From: Herbaspirillum sp.
Lineage (GTDB): Bacteria > Pseudomonadota > Gammaproteobacteria > Burkholderiales > Burkholderiaceae_D
Length of the DNA: 64,000 bases
Direction of reading: 5' to 3'
NCBI RefSeq assembly: GCF_017744395.1
Contig: NZ_JAGIBI010000001.1
Coordinates: forward strand, 248,001-312,000
A program made the position numbers and the translations under genes. Within the stretch, counting starts at the first letter, position 1, and each line of letters begins with the position of its first letter. The notes below the pieces were generated by a model, which saw only the letters and a program-made list of their open reading frames with translations, made no database searches and was not told the origin of the DNA. Shown one piece after another: positions 16,147 to 24,242 of this stretch.

Positions 16147-17115
16147 TTGACCAAGCAATCACCGCACGCGCAGCCGTCCGCGCAGATCCTGCAAGAAGCC
16201 GCCACCTGGCTGATGGAAATGCACGATGGCCCGTTGTCGCCGACGGCGCGCATGCGCTTCAACCAATGGCGCGGGCGCAGTGCCGAGCATGAACTGGCGT
16301 GGCAAAAAGCCGCCATGCTGCGCAATAAATTCCAGGACATTTCCGCGCCGGGCGCGGCTGCCCTTAAAAATACCCTGGCATCGTCCCGGCGCACCGCAGT
16401 CAAAACGCTGGTGGTGTTGCTGGCCGCAGGGCCGGTAGCATGGGGTGCGTATCGCTTGTCGCCGCTGGCCGGGCGGGAAGGGCGGCTAGCGACGGCCACG
16501 GGAGAGCGTCGCAACCTGGTGCTGGAGGACGGTACCCGGATCACCATGAATACGGCAACCGAAATCCAGGTCAGGTTCGATGCCCGCTGGCGGCATATCC
16601 GCTTGCTTCAGGGCGAAATCCTGGTTGCCACGGCCCCGGACCAACAGCATCCGGCGCGCCCGTTCATTGTGCAAACCGATGAAGGCAACCTGCGCCCATT
16701 GGGCACGCGTTTCACGGCGCGGCAGTTGGATGGCCGTTCCCAGGTGGCGGTCTATGAGGGCGCGGTCGAGGTAACGCCGGCCGGGGCCGCCATGGAGCGC
16801 AAAGTGATCGAAGCAGGCCATCAGGCAGGTTTCTCATCGCAGGGTATCGAAGCGATAAACGCTTGCGACGAACTGGGCTTGTCCTGGATGAACGGCATGC
16901 TGGTGGCGGACCGGATGCCGCTTGCCATGTTCGCGGGCGAGCTGGGGCGATACCGCGCCGGCTTGCTCCAGGTCGATGCCGATGTCGCGGCGCTTCCGGT
17001 TTCCGGGGTGTTCCCATTGGGCGATACAGGCGCCAGCCTGACTTTGCTGGAACAGACGATGCCGGTGCGTATCCGGTATTTCACGCGCTACTTGGCGCGC
17101 ATCGTGCCGAAGTAA
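16147..17115 (+). CDS. FecR-like anti-sigma/sigma regulator
   Basis: TTG start; FecR domain (TATGERRNLVLEDGTRITMNTATEIQVRFDARWRHIRLLQGEILV). Confidence 0.9.
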   Translation: MTKQSPHAQPSAQILQEAATWLMEMHDGPLSPTARMRFNQWRGRSAEHELAWQKAAMLRNKFQDISAPGAAALKNTLASSRRTAVKTLVVLLAAGPVAWGAYRLSPLAGREGRLATATGERRNLVLEDGTRITMNTATEIQVRFDARWRHIRLLQGEILVATAPDQQHPARPFIVQTDEGNLRPLGTRFTARQLDGRSQVAVYEGAVEVTPAGAAMERKVIEAGHQAGFSSQGIEAINACDELGLSWMNGMLVADRMPLAMFAGELGRYRAGLLQVDADVAALPVSGVFPLGDTGASLTLLEQTMPVRIRYFTRYLARIVPK

Positions 17116-17206
17116 TCTTAAAAATATTTTAAAAAAACTGAGCCATTTCCGATTCTCGTTGGGCATACCAACGAAGACGCTCAATTCGGACATCGAAAGG
17201 TTCAGT

Positions 17207-19702
17207 ATGAAACAACAACATCTTGGGGAAGGCGGGCGGAAACGCCCTGTGGAAAAGGCATTCATGCGCAAGTCCGCGATGGCGGTCGCCATTCATTGCG
17301 CGGCAGCGGCAATGGCCATTTCCTCGCTGGCTTGCATGGCGCCTGCCATGGCTGCCGAAGCCGCGGGCGGCGCGCAAAGCTTCAGCATTCCGCCCGGGGC
17401 GCTGGCCCAGACCCTGCAGGCTTTCGCCGCCCGCGCAGGCGTGGCCCTGTCGTTCGACGCCAGGCTGCTGGAAGGCAAGAACAGCCCCGGCCTGACCGGA
17501 ACCTACCCGGTCGACGAAGGCTTTTCCCGCCTGTTGCAAGGAACCGGCCTGCAAGCCCAGCGCCTGCCGGGCGGCGGCTATACCGTGAAAGCACCGGTGG
17601 CGGCCGCAGCGGCCACCATCGGCGAGCTGCAGCCTATCGAAATCAGCGCGCAGCGCACCAGCAGCACCATCATCCGTCCGACGCGCCAGAGCAATGTCAT
17701 CGAGCGTGAAGAGTTGAACGAACTGCGCCAGTCGTCCGACAGCCTGGCCACCGTGCTGGGCAAGATCGTTCCCGGGATGGCCGATTCCAGCCACACGATC
17801 ACCGACTACGGACAGACGCTGCGCGGCCGCAATACGCTGGTGCTGGTCGACGGCATTCCGCTCAATACCAACCGTGACTCCTCGCGCAACATGGCTACCC
17901 TGAACCTGGCCAGCATCGACAAGGTGGAAGTATTGCGGGGCAGCAGCGCCATCTACGGCGCCGGCGCCGCGGGCGGGATCATCGCCGTCACGACGCGCCC
18001 GGCAGGCGGCGAGCCCTATGCGGAAACCAGTTTCACGCTCAAATCCCCGCTGTCGCACCTGAGTAGCGACGGCCTGGGCGGCGAGGTGAACCATTACATG
18101 TCCGGCGGCAATGGCGTGGTCGATTACGCGTTCAACATCGGCTACCAGCACGTGGGCGGCTCCTTCGAGGGCAAGGGCAATCGCATCGCGCCCGAGCCCA
18201 GCCAGGGCGACCTGTTCGACAGCAACAACTACACGCTGGGCGGCAAGCTGGGATTTCGCATCGACAAGAACCAGCGTTTGCAGTTATCCGTGAGCCGCTA
18301 TGTCGCCGAGCAGGACAGTTCCTACGGCTCCGATCCGGCAGTGGCGAAGCTGCCCGCCGGATCCGCCGTGGCGCGCCCGCTGGACGGTCTGCAATTGGCT
18401 GACCAGAACCAGATCAGGAACACGCTGCTGAGCCTGGACTACCAGAACCAGGACGTCTTCGGCAGCACGCTGTCGACCCAGTTGTACTACCGCGACTACT
18501 TCACGCGCTTCACGCCATTCGATGCGCGGGCGGTCTCCACCCGCGGCAACAACGTCGACCAGGTGATGCAGAACTCCCGCGTGCTGGGCGGCCGGGCCAC
18601 ATTGACTACGCCGCTGGCGGAGAACACCAAGCTGCTGTGGGGGCTGGATTTCAACCAGGAACGCAGCGACATGCCGGACGACATCTTCAATGCCGCCGCC
18701 TATGACGCCAGCGGCGGCCGCGTTTTCCAGCGCACCGGCACCTTGCTTTACATGCCCTTGCTCACGACCCGTTCGATCGGCGGCTTCGGGCAATTGCAGC
18801 ACAAGTTCAACGACCAATGGTCGGTCGAGGTGGGGCTGCGCTATGAGCGCGCCTATGCCAGCTACGACGACTTCATTCCGCTCTCGCAAAGCAAATCGGC
18901 CACGCCGCAAAAGGTGCGCGGCGGCTCGGTTTCCTTCAGCTCCTGGATGAGCAATGCCGGCGTCGTGTTCAAGCCGGTCGCAGGGCATGAGGTCTATGCC
19001 TCGTTCAGCCAGGGCTTCCAGCTGCCTGACATCGGCGTACAGGTTCGCAACGCCACGCCGGCATTCAACATTTCGTCATCGTCGCTGGAACCGGTGAAGA
19101 CCAACAGCTACGAGCTGGGCTGGCGCGGTGCGTCCGGCAATGTCCTGGGCAACCTGACCGTGTTTCACACGACCTCGAAGCTGGGGGATATCCAGAGCTT
19201 CAACAACGGCCTGATCCTGACGCGCACGGAAGAGAAGATCACCGGCATCGAGGCCGGCGCGGACTATCTGCCGGACGATTCGGCCTGGGGCGGCGGCGCC
19301 ACCTACACCATGATGTGGGGACGGGAAACGCCGCAAGGCAGCACCAGCGACCAGATCATGAGCGGCTACCGGATCCCGCCGATGAAGGTGACGGCTTATG
19401 TGCAGTACAAGCCGGGCAGCAAGTGGAGCAACCGCCTGCAGGCGACTTACTTCGCCGCGCGCGATTACCGCCTGAAAGGCCAGACCGCCTTTGGTCGCCA
19501 GAGCATCGGAAGCTATACGACGCTTGATCTGGTCAGCCGTTATCAACTGACCGATAAAGACAGCGTGTCGCTGGGGATCGAGAACCTGTTGAACCGCTAC
19601 TACATTCCTGCGTATAGCCAGTTGATGCGCAATAGCAATAACACCAGCCGGTTGCCGGGATCGGGGGCGGTGATGAGCCTGACTTACAGTCATCGCTGGT
19701 AA
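17207..19702 (+). CDS. TonB-dependent siderophore receptor with N-terminal STN signalling domain
   Basis: STN (FSIPPGALAQTLQAFAARAGVALSFDARLLEGK), plug domain and C-terminal beta-barrel ending in ...SLTYSHRW. Confidence 0.93.
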   Translation: MKQQHLGEGGRKRPVEKAFMRKSAMAVAIHCAAAAMAISSLACMAPAMAAEAAGGAQSFSIPPGALAQTLQAFAARAGVALSFDARLLEGKNSPGLTGTYPVDEGFSRLLQGTGLQAQRLPGGGYTVKAPVAAAAATIGELQPIEISAQRTSSTIIRPTRQSNVIEREELNELRQSSDSLATVLGKIVPGMADSSHTITDYGQTLRGRNTLVLVDGIPLNTNRDSSRNMATLNLASIDKVEVLRGSSAIYGAGAAGGIIAVTTRPAGGEPYAETSFTLKSPLSHLSSDGLGGEVNHYMSGGNGVVDYAFNIGYQHVGGSFEGKGNRIAPEPSQGDLFDSNNYTLGGKLGFRIDKNQRLQLSVSRYVAEQDSSYGSDPAVAKLPAGSAVARPLDGLQLADQNQIRNTLLSLDYQNQDVFGSTLSTQLYYRDYFTRFTPFDARAVSTRGNNVDQVMQNSRVLGGRATLTTPLAENTKLLWGLDFNQERSDMPDDIFNAAAYDASGGRVFQRTGTLLYMPLLTTRSIGGFGQLQHKFNDQWSVEVGLRYERAYASYDDFIPLSQSKSATPQKVRGGSVSFSSWMSNAGVVFKPVAGHEVYASFSQGFQLPDIGVQVRNATPAFNISSSSLEPVKTNSYELGWRGASGNVLGNLTVFHTTSKLGDIQSFNNGLILTRTEEKITGIEAGADYLPDDSAWGGGATYTMMWGRETPQGSTSDQIMSGYRIPPMKVTAYVQYKPGSKWSNRLQATYFAARDYRLKGQTAFGRQSIGSYTTLDLVSRYQLTDKDSVSLGIENLLNRYYIPAYSQLMRNSNNTSRLPGSGAVMSLTYSHRW

Positions 19703-19784
19703 GCGGCAAGGCCGGTCAGCCAGTCGCCATGGCAGGGCTGATAAAACCTCCGTCGCCCTGACGAAGGTCAGGGCCCAGTGTCGT

Positions 19785-20699
19785 TCAACGGCTGCCTGGA
19801 TTTATCATCGCCGGGATATGGGCGACGAGCGCATCGATGGCAACCCGGGTCTTGCAACGCAGATGGCGCACCTGCGGCCACACCGCATGGATTTCCTGGG
19901 AAACGGCACGGTAGCTCTCCAGGACGGGAACCAGTTCACCGCTTTGCACGTATTTGCTCAATAGCCAGCAAGGGAGCCAGGCCAGGCCGTAGCCTTTGAC
20001 GGCTGCGGCAGCGATTGCCTGAACGTCATCCATGCTGATCTGAGACCGTATCGCCAGCCGCCGTGCATGGCCGCTGCCCACTTGCGCACTCCACGGCGCG
20101 GGGACGCCGGTGCGGGACTGTACGATTGCCGTGTGCCCGTCCAGTTCTTCCAGGCTGCCTGGCGTGCCGTGTCGCGACAGATAGTCCGCAGACGCGCCGA
20201 TGCTGATGTGCTGGGTACCCAGGCGCCGGGCAGCCAGCGTACTGCTGTCCTGCAGTGGGCCGATGCGCACGGCGATATCAAAGCCTTCTTCGATCAGGTC
20301 GACGTAGCGGTCGCTGAACGACAGGTCGATATCCAGTTGCGGATAGCGGCGGGTCAGCTCCAGCAGGACCGGCGCGACGCATAGATGCCCGAAGGCCTCG
20401 GGCACGCTAACCCGCAGCCGGCCACTTGGCGCCATGAGGCCGTGCTCAAGGTCGGCTTCCGCAGCGTCCAGCTCCGTTAGCGCGCGCACGCAGCGCTCGT
20501 AGTATGCCTGCCCCTCCGCCGTCAGCATTTGGCTGCGCGTATTGCGCTGAAGCAGGCACACACCCAAGCGTGCTTCCAAACGCGCGATGGCTTTGCCGAC
20601 CGCCGAGCGCGTCAGGCCAAGTTGCTCTGCCGCGGGCGCAAATCCGCCGGCTTCGACGACCTGCACGAACGTTGTGATCCCATCCAGTCTGTCTTGCAT
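19785..20699 (-). CDS. LysR-family transcriptional regulator
   Basis: MQDRLDGITTFVQVVEAGGFAPAAEQLGLTRSAVGKAIARLEARLGV HTH. Confidence 0.93.
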   Translation of the reverse strand: MQDRLDGITTFVQVVEAGGFAPAAEQLGLTRSAVGKAIARLEARLGVCLLQRNTRSQMLTAEGQAYYERCVRALTELDAAEADLEHGLMAPSGRLRVSVPEAFGHLCVAPVLLELTRRYPQLDIDLSFSDRYVDLIEEGFDIAVRIGPLQDSSTLAARRLGTQHISIGASADYLSRHGTPGSLEELDGHTAIVQSRTGVPAPWSAQVGSGHARRLAIRSQISMDDVQAIAAAAVKGYGLAWLPCWLLSKYVQSGELVPVLESYRAVSQEIHAVWPQVRHLRCKTRVAIDALVAHIPAMINPGSR

Positions 20700-20774: not shown

Positions 20775-20841
20775 AACTGTGCCGCAGTGTGGGCAGCCGC
20801 GCACACCTTATCTAGAACGCATCTCACGCCTATTGATGAAA

Positions 20842-22436
20842 TGAGTTCTACATCCTGGAGTGAAACAACCATGCAGGTACGTGACATCGAACAGCCGGCC
20901 CGGCCGCAAACAGACCATCCCTTTGCCATGCGCAACACCGTGGCGCTACTGGCCGTATGCCTGGCCGCCTTGATGTTCGGGTTGGAGATTTCCAGCGTGC
21001 CGGTGATCCTGCCCACGCTGGAAGTTGTTCTGCACAGCGACTTCAGCGGCATCCAATGGATCATGAATGCCTACACCATTGCCTGCACCGCCGTACTGAT
21101 GGCAACGGGAACGCTGGCGGACCGCTATGGCCGCAAGCGCGTATTCCTTTTCTCAATCGCACTGTTTGGAATCGCCTCGCTGCTGTGCGGCCTGGCATGG
21201 AGTACGCCGGTCCTGATCGCCGGTCGTTTCTTGCAGGGGGCGAGCGGCGGGGCGATGCTCATTTGCCTGGTGGCGGTACTCTCGCACCAGTTCCCCGAAG
21301 GAGCCGAACGCGGCAGGGCGTTCGGAATCTGGGGCATTGTCTTTGGCATCGGGCTGGGATTTGGGCCGCTGATCGGTGGCCTGATCGTCGCCGTGTCCAG
21401 TTGGAAGTGGGTCTTCTGGGCGCACGTCTTCATCGCGGCCCTGACGTTCGGCCTGGCCATCGCCGGCGTGCGCGAATCGCGCGATCCGCATGCAAGGAAA
21501 TTGGACCTGGCCGGCATCGTCACCCTGTCCCTCGCGGTGCTGGGACTTGCCTACTTCGTGACCCAGGGCGCCGACACCGGATTCGGCAGTGCTTCAGCCC
21601 TGTGCATCATCGCGGCAAGCGCCGCCAGTTTCGTGCTGTTCCTCGTCGTGGAGATGCGCGCAGCGCACCCGATGTTCGATTTTTCGGTATTCCGGGTGCG
21701 CAATTTCTCGGGGGCGCTGCTTGGCTCTGTGGGGATGAACTTCAGTTTCTGGCCGTTCATCATCTACCTGCCGATTTACTTCCAGAGTGCGCTGGGCCAA
21801 GGTCCCGCAGCCTCAGGCATGTCGCTGCTGGCCTACACCTTGCCCACGCTGATATTCCCGCCCATCGGCGAACGCCTGGCATTGCGCTACCGGCCCGGCA
21901 TCGTCATTCCCGCCGGCTTGTTCATCATCGGGCTGGGGTTCTTCCTGATGTTCATCGGCAGCGGCATCGAACAGGCGGGCTGGATGAGCGTGCTGCCTGG
22001 CTGCCTGTTGGCCGGCGCGGGTTTGGGCATGATCAATACTCCGGTGACCAACACCACCACGGGTTCGGTATCGAGCACGCGCGCCGGCATGGCATCAGGC
22101 ATCGACATGAGCGCCCGCATGATCTCCCTGGCCATCAATATCGCCTTGATGGGTTTTCTGCTGGTGCAAGGGGTATTGCAGTATCTGCAAACGGCGCTGT
22201 CCAAACCGTCCGATGATGCATCGTTGCGCGCACTGGCCAATAGCATCGCATCCGGGAGTATGCATTCCGCTAACGCCGGCGCATGGGCATCCATGCCTGC
22301 GGAGACGCTGGCGGAGATCGGCCGTGCGGCGCTGGTGCATGGTTTTGGCGGGATCATGCTCTATAGCGGCATTGCTGTCTGGGTGCTCGCCGGTATTAGT
22401 TTCCTGATCTTTGGGGAGAGGAGGGCGGTGTCATGA
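20842..22436 (+). CDS. MFS drug-resistance transporter, EmrB/QacA (14-TMS) family
   Basis: LDGR-class N-terminal pattern, TGTLADRYGRKRVFL; start MSSTSWSETTMQVRD (alternative 20872). Confidence 0.88.
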
Positions 22437-22798
22437 TTGGTCGCTGGCGGGCATTCGTGAATGGACGCGCGTGCGCCTTTTAAATTAAGGTTTGCGGCCT
22501 CATTGCCATTACAGTTTCAGTAGGAAAAAGAGTAGAAAGAGATATGTATTTGTGACCGTACCCCGGAATTAGTACCGGTCTAAAGTAGAAATTTCTGGCT
22601 TCTGACCGTATCCCGGAAGGAAAAAGACGCGGCGCCTAAGCCGCCGGAAAAAACGCACGGAACCAGGCAGCGTGCGGCAGCGGAAACCAAGGCCGGCAAA
22701 AAGACGGAAAACCAAGGTACTTAGGTAGCCGTGGCATCCTCTGGGGCGGGAGCATGCCACTCTCGCCCCCAACATTCAGAATTCAGGAGGGACTCGCT

Positions 22799-23200
22799 AT
22801 GCAGCAATCCCAAGGCCAACAGGAATTCGATTTCTACGTGAATATCGACAAGCCTACTCTCGGTCTCTATGTCCGCAAGGGAACCGGCTTGCCTGATCTG
22901 GCGGATGCCCTGTCATGGCTGTTTTCCGGGCATGTCTGGCAGAGCGAGTTATTGGGACTCATTTTCCGCCTGTGTAAACACCCATTTTCTTCTGAATGTC
23001 TCGAAGGTGATCGCAAAGGAAGATCGACTCCTCCTTCATCACGGGGTGGTTGTACATTGTCTCGTAATGCCAGTGTTCTTCACCGTCGAGTTTGTATCGG
23101 AAGTTTCCTGGATAATTGCTGGGATCTTTCCAGTAGCCCCAGCAATATTCGACAGCCATCTGGACTTCCCGAGTATGAGCCTCGTGGGTCTGGATGTTGA
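22799..23200 (+). pseudogene. short hypothetical ORF; only about the first 50 codons look like protein, the rest is antisense to the secreted-protein gene
   Basis: RBS AGGAGGG then MQQSQGQQEFDFYVNIDKPTLGLYVRKGTGLPDLADALSWLFSGHVWQSELL; downstream codons run through the 22959-23390 minus gene. Confidence 0.4.
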
Positions 23201-23390
23201 CTTCGCCGAAGGTCAGACCGATAACGGGAGTATGTTCTGAATTGTTAGCTCTGAAGGCTTGCCACGACTCTTTCTTCCCGAGAAGAACCCACGAATCAAC
23301 GCTTCGTTCCAAGGATACGAAATCCCTTGCATCAGGTTCCGCGAATGCGAGCATCGGAAGGAATGTTAGGAGGATAAGAAACCGTTTCAT
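22959..23390 (-). CDS. small secreted hypothetical protein, possible orphan immunity-like protein
   Basis: Start MKRFLILLTFLPMLAFAEPDARD... (signal peptide); ATGA overlap with an upstream gene fragment. Confidence 0.65.
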   Translation of the reverse strand: MKRFLILLTFLPMLAFAEPDARDFVSLERSVDSWVLLGKKESWQAFRANNSEHTPVIGLTFGEVNIQTHEAHTREVQMAVEYCWGYWKDPSNYPGNFRYKLDGEEHWHYETMYNHPVMKEESIFLCDHLRDIQKKMGVYTGGK

Positions 23391-23548
23391 TCGATGCTTT
23401 TGATATGAGCCTTGGTGATCGCACTGTCCAAGCAGCCCTTCAGATAGGCATAGAGCGTGTCGATGATTCGATGGCATAGGTTGCTCGACAGATAAGATGC
23501 GGGTGAAGTGCCGCCCAGCAAAAAATAGACGGGTGTCGGTGCTAAGGA
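23387..23548 (-). pseudogene. C-terminal fragment of an unidentified gene
   Basis: Open frame SLAPTPVYFLLGGTSPASYLSSNLCHRIIDTLYAYLKGCLDSAITKAHIKSIE*, no start codon, stop overlaps next ATG (ATGA). Confidence 0.45.
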
Positions 23549-23587
23549 TTATTTTCCCCTGGTTAGGGGAGGGTAGCAGCTTTTCCT

Positions 23588-23743
23588 TCACCTAGATCTT
23601 CTTCTAAACAAAGAAATATTTCTGTTTTGAAAATATAGAAACGGATTTATTTCTACGTAGAAAAGGAAAGCCGCAATCTCATTTTCCTTCGGCTTGGCAG
23701 TGCGCAGCTTGGCGTCATTGAGCGGGGTAACGATCTTAGGCAT
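23588..23743 (-). pseudogene. decayed N-terminus of a P4-type tyrosine integrase (DUF4102 arm-binding domain start)
   Basis: MPKIVTPLNDAKLRTAKPKE matches the typical integrase start (MP..LTD.KLR.AKPK.K), then diverges to NEIAAFLFYVEIN...* (51 aa). Confidence 0.65.
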
Positions 23744-24001
23744 AGGATCAATCCAGACGAATGATGACGCTGCTGCCGAATGCCGAGTCGATCAGGATGG
23801 CGCGGTCCTTCGTGGGGGGACTGAGTCGATAGATAAATGCGCTGCCGATATTTAGCTTTTCATCAGTGCGCCAGTCCGCGTTCAGGTAGTCGGGTAAGTC
23901 ATCCAACCCCAGCGGCTGAATTTTTGCGCCGCCGCTGACCCAATGGCGGGGGATATTGGTGATGGGGTTTGTGTGGCGGTGTTCATGCGGAACGCTATCT
24001 G

Positions 24002-24043
24002 TTTTAACGGTATTAGCTGATACCGCGAAACATACCGTTAAAA
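24002..24043. repeat. 12-bp perfect inverted repeat TTTTAACGGTAT ... ATACCGTTAAAA upstream of the integrase remnant
   Basis: Read directly; internal CGGTAT-TAGCTG-ATACCG adds a third half-site. Confidence 0.8.
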
Positions 24044-24075
24044 ATCTAGGATTTCAATGCACGTAAAAACACGTT

Positions 24076-24120
24076 AAAAAACAAAAAACCCGCGTCAGTA
24101 CTGAGCTTGAGGCGGGCTCT
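24076..24120 (-). terminator. Rho-independent terminator downstream of tRNA-Ser
   Basis: Minus strand CCCGCCTCA...TGACGCGGG stem followed by TTTTTTGTTTTTT. Confidence 0.8.
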
Positions 24121-24152
24121 TGGATTGAAAAACACTTTCTAACACAAACTTT

Positions 24153-24242
24153 TGGCGGAGGCTGTGAGATTCGAACTCACGGACGGGTCACCCCGTCGGC
24201 AGTTTTCAAGACTGCTGGTTTAAACCACTCACCCAAACCTCC
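24153..24242 (-). tRNA. tRNA-Ser, anticodon UGA, CCA encoded
   Basis: Minus strand GGAGGTTTGGGTGAGTGGTTTAAACCAGCAGTCTTGAAAACTGCCGACGGGGTGACCCGTCCGTGAGTTCGAATCTCACAGCCTCCGCCA; long variable arm and TTCGAAT loop. Confidence 0.95.

Follow-up and report, generated by a model that had tools for sequence, protein, structure and literature searches.

Remnant of a P4-type genomic island behind tRNA-Ser(UGA) in Herbaspirillum

What is the low-GC DNA that directly follows the 3' end of the minus-strand tRNA-Ser(UGA) gene in this Herbaspirillum genome? Tyrosine integrases insert islands at the 3' ends of tRNA genes, with the element restoring the tRNA (PMC4383910). The original prediction, made from the sequence alone, held that the interval studied here, from the stop codon of an MFS gene (22436) to the tRNA, contains a decayed genomic island. 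Its composition was described correctly: in the window, by which we mean the whole 64-kb stretch of DNA analyzed, positions 22451-24140 have 49.8% GC, against 64.1% +/- 3.1% for equal-size windows. This is the lowest value of the 64 kb and lies 4.6 SD under the window mean, a distance that is only a guide since the equal-size windows overlap.

The tRNA junction and other insertions at the same site

The tRNA-Ser(UGA) gene (24153-24242, minus strand), the integration target, is intact, with its CCA encoded (ARAGORN; Rfam tRNA, 56 bits). The tRNA region was used as a query against 40 relatives, and the flanks were then compared. Eighteen congeners retain the SDR gene and the tRNA at ~68-88% identity, and in these 18 the match ends at 24150-24153, which is the tRNA 3' end. 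Past this point the congeners lack the window's sequence and, in general, also each other's; nor is the stretch conserved as functional genes in congeners. The intact tRNA gene meets foreign DNA exactly at its 3' end. The congeners have other terminators behind tRNA-Ser(UGA), and several have one of these, GAACGGGCCTTTCAGGCCCGTT, in common.

On the other side, the border is less sharply drawn. A search of relatives for the ancestral left neighbor of the tRNA did not find it, and the window's genome has no clear match to a secretion-gene block that lies next to the tRNA in one congener. The window's left flank, on the MFS side, is syntenic with no congener examined, its genes mapping to scattered places in relatives, so that 22436 cannot be called an ancestral border. 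Left of the MFS gene lie genes for a FecR-like regulator, a TonB-dependent receptor and a LysR regulator (16147-20699); in one relative the receptor block and the tRNA sit on separate contigs. A 36- to 38-bp imperfect palindrome, AGAACGCATCTCACGCCTATTGATGAAATGAGTTCT (20813-20850), lies immediately upstream of the MFS gene. It is a single copy here, recurs many times elsewhere in this genome and throughout the genus, frequently in inverted pairs ~240 bp apart, and belongs to a REP/REPIN-like or MITE-like repeat family. Outside the window, two neighboring tyrosine recombinase genes occupy 219210-220875 of the same contig (C4), ~51 kb left of the tRNA.

In related species, tRNA-Ser(UGA) is an insertion hotspot with anti-phage defense cargo. 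In congeners L037 (where it is truncated), L039 and L047, a tyrosine-recombinase gene begins ~50-60 bp from the tRNA and reads away from it; the recombinase has a DUF6538 N-terminus, with GLRVREA and HSFRH motifs in L047, and is of another type than the window's integrase. The start of a DUF6538-type recombinase module is also found behind the same tRNA in L050. Directly behind the tRNA in L033 and L040 (120-3200 and 169-3201 bp past it, respectively) is an RT_UG5-nitrilase reverse transcriptase of the DRT defense group (~1045 bits), and L036 has a protein related to PDC-S49 behind the tRNA, with a relative of that protein in L038. The insertion in L034 (1680-5083) is complete: 3388 bp lie between the tRNA end and a further 17-bp copy of it, TCTCACAGCCTCCGCCA, beyond which there is a native-type terminator. 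It encodes a NACHT/STAND-like NTPase and a second ORF, has no integrase, and shows precise insertion at this site; it is possibly a defense islet moved in trans. A short palindrome-rich unit of ~115-150 bp lies behind the same tRNA in L048 (1652-1800) and L045 (1634-1740), and in L048 it ends in a 16-bp copy of the tRNA 3' end. With insertions present at this tRNA in L034, L037, L039 and L047, and congener homology ending at the tRNA 3' end, neither of the results that the original prediction had named as speaking against a decayed island turned up, and that interpretation is supported.

The integrase start and its leader

An integrase N-terminal remnant pointing away from the tRNA had been predicted, and it is there. 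The minus-strand frame that starts at 23743 encodes MPKIVTPLNDAKLRTAKPKENE (23678-23743), which reads away from the tRNA and most likely represents the opening 22 codons of a P4-type (Arm-DNA-bind_3) tyrosine integrase; the rest of the gene is gone, and unrelated AT-rich DNA follows. Among 1662 reading frames from the fetched loci, its best five matches (BLOSUM62 scores of 60-71) all fall on the N-termini of P4-type integrases from the genus, each adjoining a tRNA or tmRNA, whereas 20 shuffled queries run against the same frames reached a maximum of 42. A tblastn search with those five integrases returns 23678-23743 with E values of 5e-5 to 4e-3 and gives no convincing further integrase piece in the stretch. 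At this length the remnant has no Pfam or NCBIfam match, and its PHROG matches are weak, one being to an integrase family. A degenerate integrase-start pattern matched nothing in the genome collection; the pattern was probably too strict, because similar N-termini exist in the genus.

The predicted P4-type arrangement has a second, independent support in the leader that separates the tRNA from the integrase. Eleven P4-type elements of the genus have their integrase start 164-187 bp past the tRNA CCA, and the space between holds a terminator hairpin, a site resembling TTGACATCC and short repeats. The window has the same layout on the minus strand. A hairpin scan identified the element-borne intrinsic terminator CCCGCCTCA-AGCTCAGTAC-TGACGCGGG (24089-24116), followed by its T-run (24083-24088); the hairpin is conserved in 24 leaders, with changes on both sides at 7 of 11 consensus pairs. 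A promoter-like TTGAAATCC (24049-24057) aligns with the TTGACATCC of intact elements (11 P4-type leaders), its position suggesting the function. Next, where intact elements have GACGGTA or GGGGTA repeats in the alignment, is the inverted repeat TTTTAACGGTAT / ATACCGTTAAAA (24002-24043), one of the AT-rich palindromes that had been noted in this stretch (the other is at 23602-23633); it probably represents regulatory or integrase arm sites. The tRNA-to-integrase leader shared by P4-type elements is present in the window. Departing from this layout are ~240 extra bp between leader and integrase start, with an open frame (upORF; 23748-24020, minus strand) whose first usual start is a TTG at 23906 and whose stop lies a few bases ahead of the integrase ATG. 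The upORF, possibly a frameshifted small gene, has no homologues in the genus, in 399 genomes of the order, in plasmids or in the genome collection.

Could this leader instead be the tRNA's own downstream region, the 22 integrase-like codons being a chance or unrelated match? Five family loci (L104, L108, L109, L111 and L112) do have the leader behind a tRNA with no detectable integrase in the 1.5-1.9 kb examined, as such a reading would allow. However, the congeners differ behind this same tRNA: sequences there in 19 of them give z of 4 or less against the window leader, while the leaders of L077 and L072 give z = 34 and z = 24, the former against shuffles. Moreover, the leader accompanies P4-type integrases behind different tRNAs. 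A DNA search of 149 relatives with the whole stretch matched the leader and little else, and matches to 23992-24125 occur in genomes of the genus and family, including behind Met, Leu and other Ser tRNAs. When 13 of these loci were re-read, all 13 had a tRNA directly upstream on the correct side (Met, Leu and Ser isoacceptors), in a register agreeing within 2 bases in 11 and shifted by ~10 in two (L106 and L107). With the integrase match also far over its shuffled controls, we consider a native leader highly improbable.

P4-type islands (Arm-DNA-bind_3, PF13356) share with the window the position at a tRNA 3' end, the integrase reading away, its N-terminal sequence as far as the 22 codons show, and a leader whose terminator, promoter-like site and repeats keep the same register; they differ in that the window's integrase is cut after 22 codons, with the ~240 bp before its start, and that the window has neither a distal attachment site nor a recognizable cargo set. 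When an integrase is transcribed away from the tRNA, its promoter and the attachment region overlap; in the KplE1-type module it is attL that overlaps the integrase promoter (PMC2951348). In the window, too, the integrase points away from the tRNA and the DNA between them holds a promoter-like site and repeats, but the integrase is destroyed. The tDNA islands of Islander (PMC4383910) resemble the window in their intact target tRNA with foreign DNA directly downstream, and differ in having a displaced tRNA fragment and an intact integrase; lacking both, the window would not be listed by that approach.

We therefore hold with high confidence that the stretch represents a fossilized P4-type genomic island that had integrated site-specifically in the 3' end of tRNA-Ser(UGA). 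The integrase would have linked the target to a tRNA-end copy carried by the element, leaving the tRNA intact. The native terminator would have been pushed away by the insertion, as is indicated indirectly by the end of congener homology at the tRNA end and by the element-type terminator now found there. The element appears to have brought this terminator with it and, behind it, what by its anatomy would be the integrase promoter and regulatory repeats; the leader would now terminate the tRNA transcript. Later the integrase was presumably truncated to 22 codons, the element lost its distal attachment site and most of its cargo, and the IS and gene fragments now present accumulated, perhaps in that order. 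Junction, leader, integrase start and lack of a second attachment site are features of the window as it stands. Four points count against this account: the integrase remnant is only 22 codons long and without a Pfam or NCBIfam match; the leader is followed by the ~240 extra bases where intact elements need 164-187 bp in total from tRNA to integrase; the mosaic farther left may be of another origin; and the genome has no second copy of the tRNA end.

The missing distal end and the mosaic

As a check on this last point, the original prediction had proposed looking for a duplicate of the tRNA 3' end around 22.4 kb. Exact, mismatch and ungapped local searches found no displaced copy there, elsewhere in the window or in the rest of the genome; a search tolerating 2 mismatches gave just two matches to the tRNA end, both at chance level and on other contigs. 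With the distal attachment site gone, the extent of the element is not defined and its far border cannot be fixed, and the locus is filed as a remnant and not as an intact island. As judged from its sequence, the element is dead and would not move by itself, its integrase being truncated and the genome holding no second attachment site; these losses make excision or integration by it very unlikely. A small element still mobile in trans, driven by another integrase, has a precedent in the integrase-less 3.4-kb L034 insertion at the same tRNA. The absence of a distal att copy from window and genome argues against this, and we give it very little credence.

Left of the integrase remnant, 22437-23677 is a mosaic in which the gene fragments that had been predicted were recognized. 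At 22553-22602 lies an IS3-type insertion sequence end, 94-96% identical to a copy that in a congener lies just behind the 3' part of a transposase frame; we assign it to IS3 on the basis of our reading of that frame. A second, similar IS end begins at 22603. A conserved small protein gene (22799-22951, plus strand) is C-terminally truncated to 51 of ~64-70 codons, its homologues of ~64-70 residues being beta- and alphaproteobacterial (Paraburkholderia, Caballeronia and Shinella plasmids). On the minus strand, 23387-23464 encodes a C-terminal cytochrome c tail of ~25 codons, matching over 50-52 bp at 80-86% identity, and at 56-64% amino acid identity, cytochrome c genes beside PQQ dehydrogenase genes; its source is the kind of gene that accompanies PQQ-dependent alcohol dehydrogenases. 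The start of a 143-aa ORF (22959-23390, minus strand) overlaps the cytochrome c stop (ATGA). This ORF corresponds to the small secreted-protein gene of the original prediction, of which the signal-peptide-like N-terminus stands; the ORF is an orphan, with no homologues in 300 genomes of the order, plasmids, phages or viral contigs. Its AlphaFold single-sequence model (pLDDT 43) was uninformative and too poor for a structure search. Adjoining the integrase remnant is an AT-rich palindromic stretch (23476-23677, 42% GC) that contains the palindrome at 23602-23633. A DNA search with the stretch gave no match in phages.

The mosaic need not come from the same element as the leader. It may have arisen in separate events, with a P4-type element inserted and almost wholly lost, as proposed above for the island end, and 22437-23677 being independent debris, not island cargo, that IS activity and rearrangement brought together at a synteny breakpoint. 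The IS3-type ends at 22553 and 22603, the cytochrome c tail from a PQQ-dehydrogenase type cluster and the scattered places in relatives of the genes left of the tRNA all favor such an origin. On the other hand, GC is below average over most of 22437-24152, as expected of one foreign block, though this does not prove one origin. We regard independent debris as a serious contender, at slightly under even chances.

Fossil leaders and possible terminator retention

The fossil island end at tRNA-Ser(UGA) has counterparts among the 13 re-read leader loci. Besides the five in which no integrase was detectable, three (L106, L110 and L113) keep only the first 31-61 integrase residues, and one (L107) has only an internal integrase piece. 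The window falls in this fossil class, with a leader and no working integrase. In L108 and L109, similarity stops right after the terminator T-run, as a dependence of the tRNA on the element's terminator would predict. The front module might be kept after the death of an element if insertion removes the native terminator and the tRNA then depends on that of the element, an explanation we offer tentatively and think somewhat doubtful. The recurrence of the fossil state in related genomes suggests, short of proof, that the terminator may be kept for the need of the tRNA; because the leader itself was the query that retrieved these loci, the search biases the pattern, and we treat retention as a hypothesis.

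The decayed P4-type island end described here is ordinary in kind and well supported, with an undefined far border, and it records a dead island at a hotspot tRNA that has defense cargo in related species. Island finders that rely on an intact integrase and a second attachment site miss such dead insertions, for which the terminator-containing leader is a signature by which they could be counted when both are lacking. If terminator retention is true, fossil leaders would make up a class of domesticated tRNA terminators that has arisen repeatedly, and would mark ancient insertions.
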